A stretch of DNA of 64,000 nucleotides from NCBI RefSeq assembly GCF_013166655.1, contig NZ_JABKCA010000017.1:1-64000 (forward strand). The letters are read 5' to 3'. The stretch comes from Lentimicrobium sp. L6. Lineage in GTDB: Bacteria > Bacteroidota > Bacteroidia > Bacteroidales > UBA12170. Positions 12,714-20,235 of this stretch are shown here, piece by piece. Every line of letters starts with the position of its first letter. Position 1 is the first letter of the stretch. The notes beneath the pieces were generated by a model. That model ran no database searches and was not told the DNA's origin. It was given only the letters and a program-made list of their open reading frames with translations. A program made the translations under genes and the position numbers.

Positions 12714-13100
12714 TTAAGCAAATTTAATAGCCAATTCCATTTTTGTTCTAATATCATCGCGAACACAATTTAAAGCAGGATTTCCAATGAAGTCGAACAA
12801 GACTTTACTCTCTATGGCTACAATTCTAGTTTCTGTTTCTGAAACAAATTGCACAGCGAGTTTGCAAGGAAGTATTAATCCTAGATCCTCCTCTTTAGTG
12901 ATGGCATCGTAGGCATATTGAGGATTACAAGCTCCAATAACCTTATATCTGCGAAAATCTTTTCCAAGTTTATTTTTAAAAACCTGATCAAGATCAATTT
13001 CCGTTAATATACCAAAACCTTCATTTTGTAGGGAGTCAGTTAAGCGCTGAACTGCGGTATCGAAATCGCAATCCAACTTTCTTCCAATAGAATATTCCAT
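12714..13100 (-). CDS. DUF302 domain-containing protein
   Basis: 128 residues, no signal peptide. The sequence opens MEYSIGRKLDCDFDTAVQRL and carries the family pattern of a short alpha/beta fold: ALQxEGFGILTEIDL-like helix and strand, then FRRYKVIGACNPQYAYDAI and the LPCKLAV strand. DUF302 proteins are small and of unknown biochemical function. It starts 1 bp after the response-regulator stop and so is the third gene of the two-component operon, which suggests it is co-expressed with, or is an accessory to, that system. Confidence 0.85.
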   Translation of the reverse strand: MEYSIGRKLDCDFDTAVQRLTDSLQNEGFGILTEIDLDQVFKNKLGKDFRRYKVIGACNPQYAYDAITKEEDLGLILPCKLAVQFVSETETRIVAIESKVLFDFIGNPALNCVRDDIRTKMELAIKFA

Positions 13101-13101
13101 A

Positions 13102-13803
13102 TTAATTATCGCTTACCTCTAACTTAAACCCTGTTCCGTGAACATTGGTAATGGTAATATTCGGATCAATTTTCAACATCTTACGAAGCTTGGCAATAAA
13201 CACATCCATACTTCTACCAATGAAATAATCACTAGAACCCCAAATCTTTTCAAGCGCATATTCTCTTTCAACCAATTGGTTTTTATTTTCAGCCAATAAT
13301 TTAAGAAGGGCCGCTTCTTTTCTTGTTAAAGAATAATCCTTACCTCCATGAATAAGAATCATATTCTTATGATCGAATTGAATAGTACCCAATTCAAAAA
13401 TATCTGGAATCTTCTTCTGACGGTATTGAATTTCGCTTCTCTTGAGGATGGCACCAATACGAAGACTTAATTCTTCGGTACTAAATGGCTTTGTAATATA
13501 ATCGTCACATCCCGCTTTAAACCCAGCAATCCTATCTTCTTTCAGCGACTTTGCGGTGAGGAAAATAAGAGGAATATCAGCATTTATTGCCCTAATGTCT
13601 TTTGCCAATCTGAAACCATCTTTCTTTGGCATCATTACATCTAAAATACACAGGCTAAATTCATTTTCTTTAAACGCTTCGAGGCCTTCTTCACCGTCGT
13701 TACGCAATACGGTTTCGTATCCCAACATTTCCAAATAATCTTTAAGGACCATACTTAGGTTGGCATCATCTTCCACTAAAAGGATTCTTGTTTTATCTTC
13801 CAT
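13102..13803 (-). CDS. OmpR/PhoB-family DNA-binding response regulator
   Basis: 233 residues. Receiver domain 1-120 with the acidic pocket (LLVEDDANL), phosphoacceptor Asp55 (CILDVMMPKKDG), Thr/Ser switch (FLTAKS) and Lys (ITKPFS). The C-terminal winged helix runs 130-230 (LTRKEAALLKLLAENKN, IWGSSDYFIGRSMDVFIAKLRKML). It resembles RprY of Bacteroides in type. It is 5 bp downstream of the histidine kinase gene and 1 bp upstream of the DUF302 gene. OmpR-type regulators bind direct repeats spaced 10-11 bp, and exactly such an array (TTAACA x4) lies upstream of the kinase gene at 15204-15241, making it the obvious candidate target. Confidence 0.95.
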   Translation of the reverse strand: MEDKTRILLVEDDANLSMVLKDYLEMLGYETVLRNDGEEGLEAFKENEFSLCILDVMMPKKDGFRLAKDIRAINADIPLIFLTAKSLKEDRIAGFKAGCDDYITKPFSTEELSLRIGAILKRSEIQYRQKKIPDIFELGTIQFDHKNMILIHGGKDYSLTRKEAALLKLLAENKNQLVEREYALEKIWGSSDYFIGRSMDVFIAKLRKMLKIDPNITITNVHGTGFKLEVSDN

Positions 13804-15138: not shown

Positions 15139-15146
15139 CAAAATTA
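15139..15146 (-). promoter_or_regulatory. -7 element for the two-component operon
   Basis: TAATTTTG on the minus strand, about 40 bp upstream of the kinase start, matches TAnnTTTG. Located 58 bp from the nearest TTAACA repeat, so the array could also affect this promoter (autoregulation). Confidence 0.45.
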
Positions 15147-15203: not shown

Positions 15204-15241
15204 TTAACAGCTCCTTAACAGAAGTTAACAGGGGATTAACA
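15204..15241 (+). promoter_or_regulatory. Four phased TTAACA direct repeats (likely response-regulator operator)
   Basis: Perfect hexamers TTAACA begin at 15204, 15215, 15225 and 15236, i.e. spacing 11, 10 and 11 bp, one DNA helical turn each. Such an array of two tandem dimers is the usual binding layout for OmpR/PhoB-family regulators; the hexamer and spacing resemble the Pho box described for Bacillus PhoP (TT(A/T/C)ACA repeats). The array ends 21 bp before the TACATTTG -7 box of the small secreted protein, where a -33 element would normally be, and none is visible there. The adjacent operon encodes an OmpR-family regulator. Confidence 0.75.
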
Positions 15242-15262: not shown

Positions 15263-15270
15263 TACATTTG
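15263..15270 (+). promoter_or_regulatory. -7 element of the small secreted protein gene
   Basis: TACATTTG fits TAnnTTTG and lies 32 bp upstream of the ATG. No TTG is present at the -33 position; TTAACA repeats occupy that region instead, as expected for an activator-dependent promoter. Confidence 0.55.
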
Positions 15271-15302: not shown

Positions 15303-15584
15303 ATGAAAAAATTAATTTTAAGTTTAGCTCTTGCAGCTTTTATTGGTGGAAGTTCACTTGCTATTGCAGGTACAACAAATAGTACAGATCAAAACGCCAA
15401 CATGGTTGAGATGATTCAAGATGGTAAGAAAAAAGCCACTTCAACAACTAAAGATGCTAAGAAAGAAGGTTGCGACAAGAAAGCTAAAAGCGACTGTAAA
15501 AGTAACGATGTATTAAAGAAGAAAAGCTGCTGTTCTGATGGCAAAGCCACAAAAGAAAAAGCTGCTAAACCAGAAAAAAAATAA
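15303..15584 (+). CDS. Small secreted Lys- and Cys-rich protein of unknown function
   Basis: 93 residues. Signal peptide 1-22 (KKLILSLALAAFIGG, cleavage near AIA-G). The mature ~70 residues are strongly basic and disordered-looking, with about one third lysine and four cysteines in the order ...EGC-, SDC-, SCC-. I know no family for it. The likely export, the cysteine cluster and the lysine runs could suit metal binding, polyanion binding or redox buffering, but nothing in the sequence decides. It has its own promoter preceded by the TTAACA array and its own terminator, so it is a single-gene unit likely to be controlled by the divergent two-component system. Confidence 0.8.
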   Translation: MKKLILSLALAAFIGGSSLAIAGTTNSTDQNANMVEMIQDGKKKATSTTKDAKKEGCDKKAKSDCKSNDVLKKKSCCSDGKATKEKAAKPEKK

Positions 15585-15603: not shown

Positions 15604-15625
15604 GCAATCTAAGGATTGCTTTTTT
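15604..15625 (+). terminator. Rho-independent terminator
   Basis: GCAATC-TAAG-GATTGC, a 6-bp stem and 4-nt loop, followed by six T residues, 20 bp after the stop of the small secreted protein. Confidence 0.75.
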
Positions 15626-15703: not shown

Positions 15704-17989
15704 TTAAAACCAGAATCCAATATTTAAGAATCCTGAAATAGTTCTATAATTAGAACCCATTACTGATAATTCTACTGGACCAATCACACTGTCATATCCC
15801 CAGGTCAAACCATATCCGATAGCGCTATTATCTACATAAAACAAATCTGATTTAATGAAAGTAGTATTTCCGACGTCCACCGTAGCCATTAAATAGTGGC
15901 GTTTATGAATATTATACTGCAAGCGTAACCTACCTGCTAGCATCTGAGTCCCATACAATTGAAACACATTTAACCCACTAAAAGAAGTCATGCCTGGTAA
16001 ATAATGAGCCCCTTGACCACCTAACATAAACATATGACTAACATAGATTCCTGTTCCAAAAGTCAAACCTAGGCTCACTCTAGGACGAAAAGTCCATTTT
16101 GAACTAAGTGGAATGGCCTTATCATAGGTTCCAGACAATATGGTAGCTTTCTCACCAAAATTTAAATTTCCACCTTGTAAAAATTCCGTAATAAAAACTG
16201 CATTCACATCAACTTTACCCCCTCTAGTAGGAAAGAAGCTATGATCCCATCTGTCTACTTTTAAAAATGCAAAGAAATTGAAGAAAGACTGTGAAAACTG
16301 TGAATTATTCACACCAAAATCAATTCCAATATTATTTCGCAAACTGGAAACTTCCATTTGCACCCCACCACCTAATGATACATTTCTTCGACTTATTGAC
16401 TGTAAATACAATTCCACCAATAAATTTGACATCTGATATTCACCCACTTTATCTTTACCATTTAAATAATCGATAAAAGAAAAGCTAAACCATTTGGTAG
16501 CAAATCCGAAACTAGGTAACAAACTTCTATTCTGATAATATTTCAAACCTAAATGAGGATTCTCACTTAAGCCAAGAGTAGTTTCAAGAAGTGTATTTTT
16601 GAAAAGCAAATTCCTAAACCGACTGGTGACCAATATACCTGCCTTATAATCAGAATCGTAATGAAGACCCAAACCAATACTCCCTAACTCATCTTCCTCC
16701 ACTTCTATCTTTAGGATTGCACCTTGTTTGCCTGGAATCAAACTGTACTTTGCCGTTTTGAAAAACAAACTTCCATAAACCTGCTCTATCGCCCCCTCCA
16801 AATCTTCAATTTCTACCACATCCCCCTTTTTCTCATTAAAAAGCTTTTTTAAGGTTTGGGTAGAAACAATCTCGTTTCCAACTACAACAACAGAATCTAA
16901 AACAAAGTGCGAGATGGGCTGAAGGTCTCTTATCTTTAATTCATAATCGGGAAACTTTTTAAGATATGATGCTAAACTATCCAACCGTGACTTATTCTTC
17001 AGACCAGCCCTTTCTCCACGCAGCATGATACTATCATAATCAGCAAATGAGCCTACTCCATATCCTGTAATATCAGGTTGAATATAGTAATCTACATATT
17101 TCATGGCTGTATCGTTCAATGCTTTTCGATAAAACCCTGCACTTCTATCAAGTATTGAAGTAATTGTATTCAGATCCTCCACTTTATAATCGATATGGCT
17201 CTGCACATCCACTCCAATAATAATATCGCATCCTCGCTCAGCTAATTCCTTTGCAGGAAAATTATTTACCAAACCTCCATCAACCACAAGCTTCCCTTTA
17301 ACCACAACAGGGGTAAATACTGTTGGAATAGCCATACTTGCTCTCATAGCTTCTGCCAAACTCCCATCTTCAATTATCACCGACTCTCCATTTGCAATGG
17401 CTGTTCCAATACACAAAAATGGAGTTTGAAAATCTTTAAAACTATGATGTTGGTATACTGGAGTTGTTAGAGTGGATAACAATAATGATATATTCTGACC
17501 ATATTTTATTCCAAATGGAAGACTTATCTTTTCTTTTGTGACAGGAAAACTAATAAATTGCTGTTCATTATAATTTTTCTCATCAAGACTTAATTGCCTT
17601 CTACTTATTTTATCTAAAAGAAGATCAGTCCAATTCTGACTTCTAACTAAATTCTCAATAAATTCGGGGCTATAACCAATGGCATATAATCCACCTACGA
17701 TACTACCCATACTCGTTCCAGCTACATAATCCACTTCGATTCCAGCATCTCTAATCACCTTTAACGCACCAATATGTGCAAACCCCTTAGCTCCCCCTCC
17801 ACTGAGCACAAGACCTACTTTTGGCCTCGTTTTACGAGTTGTATCGAGTTTTACAGGTTCTGCAATTAAATTTAATGAAAACAATATTAGCATCAAAAGC
17901 AGTATTGTTCTTTTCAAAAAACACAATATAATGATTTGAGAACTAAACAAAAAATTGCTCCATGAACGATATGTCATCACTTTTTTCAT
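15704..17989 (-). CDS. Patatin-like phospholipase with POTRA and outer-membrane barrel (type Vd-like)
   Basis: 761 residues. After a hydrophobic export signal (about residues 25-43, preceded by an atypically long N-terminus, so the true start may be internal) comes a patatin lipase domain. Its parts are the oxyanion loop GGGAKGFAHIG, nucleophile GTSMGS and catalytic Asp in VDGGLVNNFPA. A POTRA-like segment (SHFVLDSVVVVGNEIVSTQTLKKL) lies at about 385-450. The C-terminal 300 residues form a BamA/D15-type barrel ending in the aromatic GFLNIGFWF. This domain order is that of PlpD-type (type Vd) autotransporters. It lies 8 bp downstream of a paralogue and is surely co-transcribed with it. Confidence 0.88.
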   Translation of the reverse strand: MKKVMTYRSWSNFLFSSQIIILCFLKRTILLLMLILFSLNLIAEPVKLDTTRKTRPKVGLVLSGGGAKGFAHIGALKVIRDAGIEVDYVAGTSMGSIVGGLYAIGYSPEFIENLVRSQNWTDLLLDKISRRQLSLDEKNYNEQQFISFPVTKEKISLPFGIKYGQNISLLLSTLTTPVYQHHSFKDFQTPFLCIGTAIANGESVIIEDGSLAEAMRASMAIPTVFTPVVVKGKLVVDGGLVNNFPAKELAERGCDIIIGVDVQSHIDYKVEDLNTITSILDRSAGFYRKALNDTAMKYVDYYIQPDITGYGVGSFADYDSIMLRGERAGLKNKSRLDSLASYLKKFPDYELKIRDLQPISHFVLDSVVVVGNEIVSTQTLKKLFNEKKGDVVEIEDLEGAIEQVYGSLFFKTAKYSLIPGKQGAILKIEVEEDELGSIGLGLHYDSDYKAGILVTSRFRNLLFKNTLLETTLGLSENPHLGLKYYQNRSLLPSFGFATKWFSFSFIDYLNGKDKVGEYQMSNLLVELYLQSISRRNVSLGGGVQMEVSSLRNNIGIDFGVNNSQFSQSFFNFFAFLKVDRWDHSFFPTRGGKVDVNAVFITEFLQGGNLNFGEKATILSGTYDKAIPLSSKWTFRPRVSLGLTFGTGIYVSHMFMLGGQGAHYLPGMTSFSGLNVFQLYGTQMLAGRLRLQYNIHKRHYLMATVDVGNTTFIKSDLFYVDNSAIGYGLTWGYDSVIGPVELSVMGSNYRTISGFLNIGFWF

Positions 17990-17997
17990 TGTTATTA

Positions 17998-20235
17998 TTA
18001 AAATCTAAAACCTAAATTTAAATCTAGAACCAGTTTTCCTTTTGGATATGCTTTAGCCACTGAAAAACTTACAGGCCCTAAAGGACTATAGTAACTGTAA
18101 GATAATTGCCAACCACTATAAAATTTATTATCTTCAAATGACTTATCAAAATCAAAATTCAGCGATAATAAATTTCCTTTGGCCGTTAAATAATGTTTCT
18201 TCCAGAAATTATATCTCAAACTTAATCTAGGGTTAAAAGCAGTATGCCCTCCAAGTTCCATAAAATCATATCCAGGGAAAACAGTGTAATTTACAAAATA
18301 CGATGGTTGAAAGCCACCAAACTTAGCCTGCTTTGAAATGGGTACTTTCTCAGCCAAAATCTTATAAAAATAAGCATCAGGTATTATAACCCAAGCTTTA
18401 CGAAGAGTTATGATACCATTAAACTCTACAAATAAAGATGTATAGTCATAATCATAAGTATCATATACTACAAGGCCAGCATCATCTGTATCAATATCAG
18501 TATTTTCACCAGCTCCAAATTCCATCTTACCCCTAAAGCGCATGCCTGTATTTGGAAAGTATAACTTATCATATGTATCCACTAAAATGTCAGCAAATAA
18601 TCCAACACTTACATTATCAGCATTATCAAAATCATAAACTGAGACGTCCTGACTCACAGTATTTTGCCTCAGGTTATAACCTAATTTAAATCGCAGTAAG
18701 TTCTTATAGGTCAAAAGTCCAAAACCATTAGTCTGAAAAACACCATTATTAAAACTAACATTTGACTTGCCATTCTTATACCGAAACCCCGGTTGAGAAA
18801 AAGCAATTAAATCGACTCCATAACCGGGTTTAAATCCATTATCAACAACATATTCAGCAGCAAACCTTGCCACTGTACCTAATACTAGATCAACAGATAA
18901 ACGTCCATTTTGCGCGCCGAAATTTCGCGCTGTCAAATTGAGTAACAAAGCTGCTTTAGTAAATTCATTATAATGTGCTCCTACATTTAAATCAAATAAG
19001 CTGGCCTCCTCCACTGTAATTTTGATTATTGTTTCTCCATTCCCAGTTCTACTTAACTGATAGTCTACTGTATGAAACAATTTGGTCCCATACAATTCAT
19101 TAATTCTATCATTGAGCTCAAATACAGAAATCAAATCACCTGAAAATACATCTAATTTACTTTTCAAATAAGAATCGGACACCCTCTTATTTCCAATAAA
19201 CTTCACATGATCAACATATAACACATCCATAGATGGGAAAGCATCTTGATCCCCTCTAACTTTTTCTCTTTTAAATGAAATAGAATCAAGGAAAGCCCTT
19301 ATTTGGGGAACCATTTGTCGGGCTTTTCTTTCACCTCTTGCTATTAAAGAATCGGCCCTATTAAAATCCATTGCTGTGAAGGGATCAATTTCAGGTTTGA
19401 TGAAGAGGTCAATAAGCTCAAGGTTCTTCTCATAATTATCTTCTCCGCTCAGAAAAATAGATTGAGATAATACTTGAACTAAATTAGTAATGTCTTCTTG
19501 TGGGTATAAAGGAGTCTGTATATCTACACCTATTAAATAGTCTGCACCAAGTTTTTTAACCTCCTTAGCAGGGAAATTATCTATAATTCCTCCATCAACC
19601 AAATAATAAGGACCCCATTTAACTGGAGCGAAAGCTGATGGAACCGACATAGAAGCACGAATAGCTAATGCGATATTTCCGGTATCGAGCTTGATGGCTT
19701 GCCCACTCAATAAATCTGTAGCCATACAAAAAAATGGCTTATCTAAATCTGAAAAACTTTCGACATGATATACGGGGTTTGACAAAGTGGTGAGCATTAA
19801 CATGACATTCTGTCCATAAACCAGACCTGGAGGAATACTCAGCTTACGTCCCTTTAAACCTAGAGAAAAAACATACCGTTCACTGTCCAGCTTCTCATAT
19901 ATACCTAAATCTCTACGACTTACCTTATCATTCAAAACCAAATCCCAATCTTGAGTTAAGGCCATCTTCTCAATTTCAGATATGGAATAACCCATAGAGT
20001 ATAAACCTCCAACAACAGCCCCCATACTCGTTCCACCAATGAGTTCTACGTCGATCCCCTCCTCTTCTAATACTTTTATCACCCCAATATGTGCAAAGCC
20101 CCTAGCTCCGCCACCACTCAAAACCAAACCAATTCGAGGGTTTTCCACATCAGAATTCTGACCATAGACTTGAGAAACCCCAATCAATAGAATTAGAATA
20201 AAATATAGATTTTTTTTGACAAACTTATTATGCAT
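17998..20235 (-). CDS. Patatin-like phospholipase with POTRA and outer-membrane barrel (type Vd-like), paralogue
   Basis: 745 residues: signal peptide (LILLIGVSQVYGQ), patatin domain with GGGARGFAHIG, GTSMGA and VDGGIIDNFPAKE, a POTRA-like domain (VDHVKFIGNKRVSDSYLKSKL) near 345-410, and a barrel ending in LVLDLNLGFRF. The catalytic Ser/Asp dyad is intact, so both tandem copies should be active lipases exposed by a surface barrel. Compared with its neighbour the order of domains is identical but sequence is well diverged, indicating an old duplication. It is 105 bp downstream of secA and follows a terminator, so its transcription is probably separate from secA. Confidence 0.88.
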   Translation of the reverse strand: MHNKFVKKNLYFILILLIGVSQVYGQNSDVENPRIGLVLSGGGARGFAHIGVIKVLEEEGIDVELIGGTSMGAVVGGLYSMGYSISEIEKMALTQDWDLVLNDKVSRRDLGIYEKLDSERYVFSLGLKGRKLSIPPGLVYGQNVMLMLTTLSNPVYHVESFSDLDKPFFCMATDLLSGQAIKLDTGNIALAIRASMSVPSAFAPVKWGPYYLVDGGIIDNFPAKEVKKLGADYLIGVDIQTPLYPQEDITNLVQVLSQSIFLSGEDNYEKNLELIDLFIKPEIDPFTAMDFNRADSLIARGERKARQMVPQIRAFLDSISFKREKVRGDQDAFPSMDVLYVDHVKFIGNKRVSDSYLKSKLDVFSGDLISVFELNDRINELYGTKLFHTVDYQLSRTGNGETIIKITVEEASLFDLNVGAHYNEFTKAALLLNLTARNFGAQNGRLSVDLVLGTVARFAAEYVVDNGFKPGYGVDLIAFSQPGFRYKNGKSNVSFNNGVFQTNGFGLLTYKNLLRFKLGYNLRQNTVSQDVSVYDFDNADNVSVGLFADILVDTYDKLYFPNTGMRFRGKMEFGAGENTDIDTDDAGLVVYDTYDYDYTSLFVEFNGIITLRKAWVIIPDAYFYKILAEKVPISKQAKFGGFQPSYFVNYTVFPGYDFMELGGHTAFNPRLSLRYNFWKKHYLTAKGNLLSLNFDFDKSFEDNKFYSGWQLSYSYYSPLGPVSFSVAKAYPKGKLVLDLNLGFRF

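Follow-up and report, generated by a model that had tools for sequence, protein, structure and literature searches.

Four TTAACA repeats beside a two-component operon of Lentimicrobium sp. L6 and their counterparts in related bacteria point to a conserved two-way control switch

In a stretch of 64,000 nucleotides from Lentimicrobium sp. L6 (hereafter the window), four TTAACA hexamers stand in a row between a two-component operon and the gene of a small protein, which raises the question of what this array does and which genes it serves. On the + strand the hexamers start at 15204, 15215, 15225 and 15236 (spacing 11/10/11 bp), and the first-pass annotation, which had reported four identical hexamers of this period, was correct at all four positions. 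Read as a repeat, the array consists of two tandem 21-bp units that are 71% alike (repeat family D2). Counting both strands, the window has 53 copies of TTAACA against a mean of 67.8 in shuffled sequence, and since it is rarer than expected, the hexamer cluster is not due to composition. The number of exact 11/10/11 TTAACA tetrads expected by chance in the window is 3.8e-9, and that of tetrads with any spacings of 9–12 is 2.4e-7. Tandem direct half-sites at 10–11 bp, as seen here, are one of the marks of OmpR/PhoB-family operators. We believe that the array very probably serves the adjacent OmpR/PhoB-family two-component system as its operator, on which two regulator dimers would switch on the gene of the secreted protein and, among most relatives, the operon of the kinase as well. 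The interpretation in the first-pass annotation is largely supported.

The features around the array are collected in Table 1. In the response regulator, the Pfam domains Response_reg (93.2 bits) and Trans_reg_C (57.4 bits) both scored above the cut-off, and a receiver plus Trans_reg_C winged-helix regulator beside the site is a second mark of an OmpR/PhoB-family operator. Assignment of this regulator to RprY (equivalog NF051850) was rejected, with 299.1 bits against a curated cut-off of 370. The DUF302 gene probably belongs to the same operon as the regulator. It was rejected as a part of the module, for among the loci searched it was found only in seven, namely three that represent the window and its nearest relative (L010, L011, L181) and four distant kinase loci (L213, L239, L251, L258). 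The product of 15303–15584 matched no Pfam family at E<=0.001, and its identification as an Asr acid-shock protein (NF033636) was rejected at 21.7 bits against a 50-bit cut-off. Further along, window positions 15704–20235 hold two tandem genes, each with a patatin-like phospholipase domain and an Omp85-type barrel.

Table 1. Features around the TTAACA array in the window
Feature	Position	Strand	Remarks
Operator, four TTAACA units	15204..15241	+	11/10/11 bp; sequence read, repeat search, conservation
-7 promoter box TACATTTG of the secreted-protein gene	15263..15270	+	27 bp after unit 4 start; without -33 element
Predicted secreted Lys/Cys-rich protein, 93 aa, presumed target	15303..15584	+	4 Cys, 21 Lys; hydrophobic start
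Hairpin GCAATC-TAAG-GATTGC then T6, likely terminator of the secreted-protein gene	15604..15625	+	read directly from the sequence
Candidate kinase-side -7 box	15139..15146	-	CAAAATTA on +, TAATTTTG on -; weak
Membrane sensor histidine kinase, 429 aa	13809..15098	-	HisKA + HATPase_c; divergent from the array
OmpR/PhoB-family response regulator, RprY-like, presumed array binder	13102..13803	-	Response_reg + Trans_reg_C
DUF302 protein	12714..13100	-	1 bp after the regulator gene

The box TACATTTG begins 21 bp past the last hexamer, and 19–21 bp upstream of it in the window neither TTTG nor TTG was found. This agrees with the earlier reading of an array 21 bp upstream of a TAnnTTTG box that has no -33 element. 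The first-pass annotation had further proposed that pairs of TTAACA near TAnnTTTG could be used to scan the genome. The pattern TTAACAN{4,5}TTAACA had 9 matches in the 5.14-Mb genome, of which 3 were the window array, against 3 for the reversed pattern; all six pairs outside the array lacked a box within approximately 65 bp downstream. The pair alone is therefore a poor signature and was rejected for genome-wide use, whereas the tetrad is a good one.

The tetrad was searched by DNA pattern alone. In 393 genomes of the same order, four TTAAC units at 11/10/11 with at most one mismatch were found at 116 places in 83 genomes, compared with 12 places for the reversed pattern. The 116 arrays were found again in the loci from the kinase and tetrad searches together with further stretches that were fetched, and three were dropped (a reverse-strand reading at L052, an overlapping register at L118, and a second array 107 bp further up at L059), leaving 113 arrays in 111 loci. 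In 92 of the 113 arrays TAnnTTTG followed the start of unit 4 at 26–28 bp, and in 75 at exactly 27 bp, the latter from a scan that took in all 116 arrays; random three-position windows in the same loci contained the box in 47 of 23,200 cases (0.2%). This fixed spacing supports the earlier claim that the array acts on the secreted-protein gene. In a class draw of 395 genomes with up to three mismatches, tetrad plus box occurred in 86 genomes, with 5 reversed hits in all, and in a phylum draw of 296 genomes with two mismatches it occurred in 11, the window's own included, with 0 reversed hits. Three one-mismatch arrays (L146, L148, L150) had the box at 27 bp and no kinase, and upstream of two of them (L146, L150) a 427-aa minus-strand ORF with a SAM-decarboxylase-like start was noticed by eye.

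These numbers bear on whether the repeats are an operator at all. A few one-mismatch matches (L112–L114) resemble low-complexity repeats, as they might if the repeats had arisen by chance, served replication or recombination, or were of a structural kind. Such an origin is contradicted by the chance number of about 4e-9 in the window, the excess over the reversed pattern, the conserved position between two divergent promoters and the fixed TAnnTTTG spacing, and we regard it as extremely improbable.

On the secreted-gene side, the scan of all 116 arrays found TTTG at 19–21 bp before the box in 0 of 77 cases and TTG in 1 of 77, against backgrounds of 2.5% and 6.7%; the expected -33 position is occupied by unit 4. 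Because unit 4 lies there, the bound regulator may substitute for the missing contact. In the mechanism that we propose, two regulator dimers would occupy the array one behind the other, each monomer on its own TTAACA unit and all on one face of the helix, and the bound regulator would replace the missing -33 contact and recruit RNA polymerase to the secreted-protein promoter. That the regulator binds here, that it activates instead of repressing, and what the exported protein does are inferred from arrangement and conservation.

The promoter on the other side was also examined. A kinase match (tblastn, E<=1e-5) was found at 86 of the 113 arrays, divergent in every case, and in 62 of these 86 a CAAAnnTA, which is TAnnTTTG read towards the kinase, ended 26–29 bp before the array (27 or 28 bp in 54 of the 62). 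The box was not at 26–29 bp in the other 24, both boxes were present in 56 of the 86, and random four-position windows contained the kinase-side box in 87 of 25,800 cases (0.34%). The usual geometry is 22 bp from the right end of the array to one -7 box and 27–28 bp from its left end to the other. These two fixed distances place the operator between two promoters, and because a kinase-facing -7 box lies 26–29 bp from the array, one operator could act in both directions; in most relatives it would serve both the exported protein and the kinase-regulator operon. The window itself differs. No kinase-side TAnnTTTG is present at the conserved 26–29 bp from its array, and its CAAAnnTA (CAAAATTA) lies 57 bp away, which makes autoregulation in the window doubtful. 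A fixed position relative to the promoter, a further mark of OmpR/PhoB-family operators, was seen across the loci, and on the kinase side it is absent from the window. The earlier suggestion that the divergent kinase operon may also be controlled from this array is thus supported across relatives and doubtful for the window.

The same distances help to decide between activation and repression. In 7 of 72 loci measured, again with all 116 arrays taken in, the array starts 10–23 bp from the kinase start codon as chosen by the script, so the kinase promoter there must overlap the array. Such an overlap suits a regulator that binds the array and represses one or both promoters, for example by keeping the kinase off while the secreted gene is on; moreover, the Porphyromonas gingivalis regulator RprY, in the accessible part of the literature on it, is said to act as a repressor and to bind at its own promoter. 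Against this, both -7 boxes usually keep a set distance from the array and do not overlap it, as would suit an activator site, and the secreted-gene promoter, having no -33 element, should be weak unaided. We therefore consider repression unlikely and prefer activation.

Conservation was also followed from the kinase. A kinase search of 60 genomes, the window's own included, gave a match at E<=1e-30 in 54. The nearest set was taken as the best full-length match per genome with at least 38% identity, a cut-off of our choice, and comprised 19 loci (L010–L028), that is, the window and 18 relatives. The first-pass annotation would have been contradicted if relatives with the same kinase-regulator pair had not kept the array; among the 19 loci the exact tetrad and the box at 26–28 bp occur together in 11, the window being one of them, and in another of the 11 (L014) the spacing is 11/9/11. 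The exact tetrad is missing in the other 8: L025 keeps three of the four units and the box, L026 and L027 have one hexamer pair left, and five have no array, L028 among them, whose sequence stops 60 bp past the kinase. Beside four arrayless kinases (L013, L016, L021, L022) no adjacent short secreted ORF was found; at L022 there is a 252-aa ORF with a hydrophobic start approximately 740 bp away. Conversely, L014 and L047 keep array and box, and no secreted ORF was found there. By eye, the reverse complement of L014 (2846–2990) shows a hairpin and a T run about 45 bases past the box, and the corresponding region of L047 is 1501–1700; L014 looks as if a short noncoding RNA or a gene remnant were transcribed.

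Among 80 named kinase relatives, an exact array, here meaning 11/10/11, 11/9/11 or 10/10/11, with the box at 26–27 bp was present at L181–L188, L193, L194 and L199. Many longer kinases in this set have 10/10/10 arrays that are often degenerate. At L196, L201, L202, L209, L211, L215, L254 and similar loci, the longer kinases, which we take to be of the RprX type, are accompanied by TTAAC-like units at 10/10/10, one of them often degenerate, and TAnnTTTG lies 17 bp after the start of unit 4, that is, 27 bp after the start of unit 3.

What stands beyond the box was then compared across loci. At 80 of the 92 box-bearing arrays an ORF with a minimum length of 40 aa began no more than 260 bp away, and 74 of these 80 have a strongly hydrophobic, signal-peptide-like start; the same ORF picker at random positions in the same loci gave an ORF with such a start in 314 of 2,320 cases. 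No downstream ORF was picked for the remaining 12 of the 92, L047 included. The exported ORFs were divided into class 1 (at most 140 aa with at least 3 Cys) and class 2 (at least 160 aa). Kinase-linked class 1 comprises 40 proteins of 67–124 aa with 3–14 Cys, and kinase-linked class 2 comprises 28 proteins of 162–438 aa with 0–8 Cys. The T9SS type A sorting domain was matched by 11 of 21 class-2 proteins, and Por_Secre_tail scored above the cut-off in 3 of 8 scanned. In the class-2 alignment (A2), the proteins of L082, L077, L070 and others often end in this sorting domain.

Which regulator reads the array can be judged from the regulators of the array operons. The recognition helix RS(M/L)DV(F/Y)I is nearly constant across 59 of them, and TTAAC likewise. 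A tree of all 59 full regulators, built irrespective of class and thus giving a view independent of how the exported ORFs were classified, splits into 31 and 28 rows with support 100/99, the bootstrap not having settled. In the 31-row clade 30 regulators are linked to class-1 proteins; in the 28-row clade 19 are linked to class 2, none to class 1, and the remaining 9 have no class. TTAAC is mostly followed by A at class-1 arrays, whereas in units 1–3 of class-2 arrays C or T prevails. Nine genomes have kinase-linked arrays of both clades, and the class-1 array is richer in A in 8 of them, with a tie in one; a tenth two-array genome (G367) was not counted, there being no kinase at its second array. 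Whether A or C/T follows TTAAC is correlated with regulator residues 195–196, which among the 59 are IG in 23, TT in 14 and TA in 11. Columns 148, 22, 16 and 60 fit the sixth base better than 195, and 196 is outside the best 15; that other columns fit as well or better is to be expected from ancestry, which confounds the correlation between regulator and base.

The genome of Lentimicrobium sp. L6 holds further arrays. A tetrad search with three mismatches gave 7 matches against 4 for the reversed pattern, so strong sites are few; two of the 7 are the window array, matched on each strand, one is on contig 18, one on contig 8 shares its strand with a different kinase, and there are three others. 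On contig 51 a kinase is accompanied by a degenerate tetrad with two intact units, TACATTTG at 27 bp and a downstream 147-aa exported DUF1573 protein (L263:4155–4695); by eye, L075 and L140 resemble this module. Contig 18 (L261:4446–5663) has a class-2 array, the box at 26 bp and then a 373-aa protein with a hydrophobic start, and no matching kinase beside the array. On contig 22 there are TTAAC units at 10-bp spacing with a box, and of four regulators scored the one there comes closest to RprY, with 328.8 bits against the cut-off of 370, which it does not reach.

That further RprY-like systems of the same genome own TTAAC arrays and that the recognition helix is common to the regulators would suit another OmpR-family regulator of the cell reading the array, the local pair being merely its neighbour. 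In addition, no kinase match was found in the stretch covered at 27 of the 113 arrays, of which at least one (L109) is merely cut by a contig end, and 15 of the 27 still have the box, so a distant regulator may act on some. For the array in general, this reading is opposed by the 86 of 113 arrays that adjoin a kinase and by the sixth base, which inside single genomes goes with the local clade (8 of 9), and we hold it to be even less likely than repression. The neighbouring regulator remains our preferred binder.

The kinase sensor may indicate what the exported protein does. Among the class-1 kinases whose H-box was found by pattern (33 of 37), 30 have a periplasmic part with at least 2 Cys, compared with 2 of 25 class-2 kinases, a correlation that goes back to a single deep division in the regulator tree, whose bootstrap had not settled. 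Cys141 (window kinase numbering) is present in 26 of the 28 aligned sensors of the larger class-1 group, or 26 of 37 with all class-1 kinases; left out of the alignment were L092, truncated at its start and without Cys141, and eight more distant kinases. The structure model of the kinase was of good quality, with a pLDDT of 85.4 and a pTM of 0.59, and the PDB matches listed were led by kinase cores such as HK853. The sensor alone (residues 28–159, pLDDT 85.7) had no Foldseek match at E<=0.001, and its best VIA-align row was a chemoreceptor sensor domain (Z 5.7, 103 residues, 3.4 A), which may reflect a common arrangement only.

A Cys-rich exported protein and periplasmic Cys in the kinase fit a cognate periplasmic pair. 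By analogy with CpxP and CpxA, our preferred guess is that the exported protein may act in the periplasm as a partner or effector within the pathway to which the kinase belongs. More broadly, we tentatively speculate, as a possibility rather than an expectation, that Bacteroidota have private three-part envelope circuits, in which a kinase, a regulator and a fast-evolving exported feedback or sensing partner are governed by one bidirectional tetrad operator. If this is true, the exported protein in the window clade would be a thiol or metal partner of the kinase, because most window-clade kinases have periplasmic Cys and the exported protein is rich in Cys and Lys; in the sister clade, kinase sensor and exported protein alike have few cysteines.

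That the same layout, at fixed distances from the adjoining promoters, turns up in dozens of relatives suggests a control switch that works both ways and has been conserved. It provides a testable DNA signature, namely four TTAAC units at 11/10/11, 22 bp and TAnnTTTG, as a rule mirrored by a box on the opposite side, by which two-component operons and their target genes can be found from sequence alone in Bacteroidia. It also hints at the way in which promoters lacking a -33 element may be driven in Bacteroidota, and it groups many nameless exported proteins with the kinases that they accompany.

Parts of this arrangement are known from other systems. The PhoP box of Bacillus subtilis consists of four TTAACA-like hexamers at approximately 11-bp spacing; in our literature search on this box, the word TTAACA was not found among the matches listed. 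B. subtilis belongs to another phylum and its PhoP acts with another sigma factor at another promoter type than the window array. In E. coli, an exported-protein gene in the cpx locus is divergent from its own two-component operon. The window shares this layout, with an exported gene divergent from a two-component operon and a regulator site, inferred here, between them. The product of 15303–15584 has no CpxP/Spy family match in Pfam at E<=0.001, so CpxP-CpxRA serves as a working analogy only; CpxP is reported, in the accessible part of the source, to interact with CpxA (PMC4160245). With regard to RprXY, RprY is the best NCBIfam match of the window regulator, at 299 bits below the equivalog cut-off, and the contig 22 regulator of the same genome is closer to it. 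The combination of tetrad, two-sided promoter spacing and a module of kinase and exported protein was not found in the literature searched, subscription papers lying outside it. The type of site is known, and its half-site has already been reported: for PhoP of Riemerella anatipestifer, another member of the Bacteroidota, the accessible part of the report gives a DAP-seq motif with the core TTTAACA, 583 peaks and binding to its own promoter, and describes no tetrad, fixed TAnnTTTG spacing or divergent secreted-protein module (PMC9603813). Judging from its name and ArcA-like motif, this PhoP presumably belongs to the OmpR family. As far as that part of the report goes, it resembles the window system in being a same-phylum response regulator with the same half-site and own-promoter binding, and it is a nearer precedent for the array than Bacillus PhoP.
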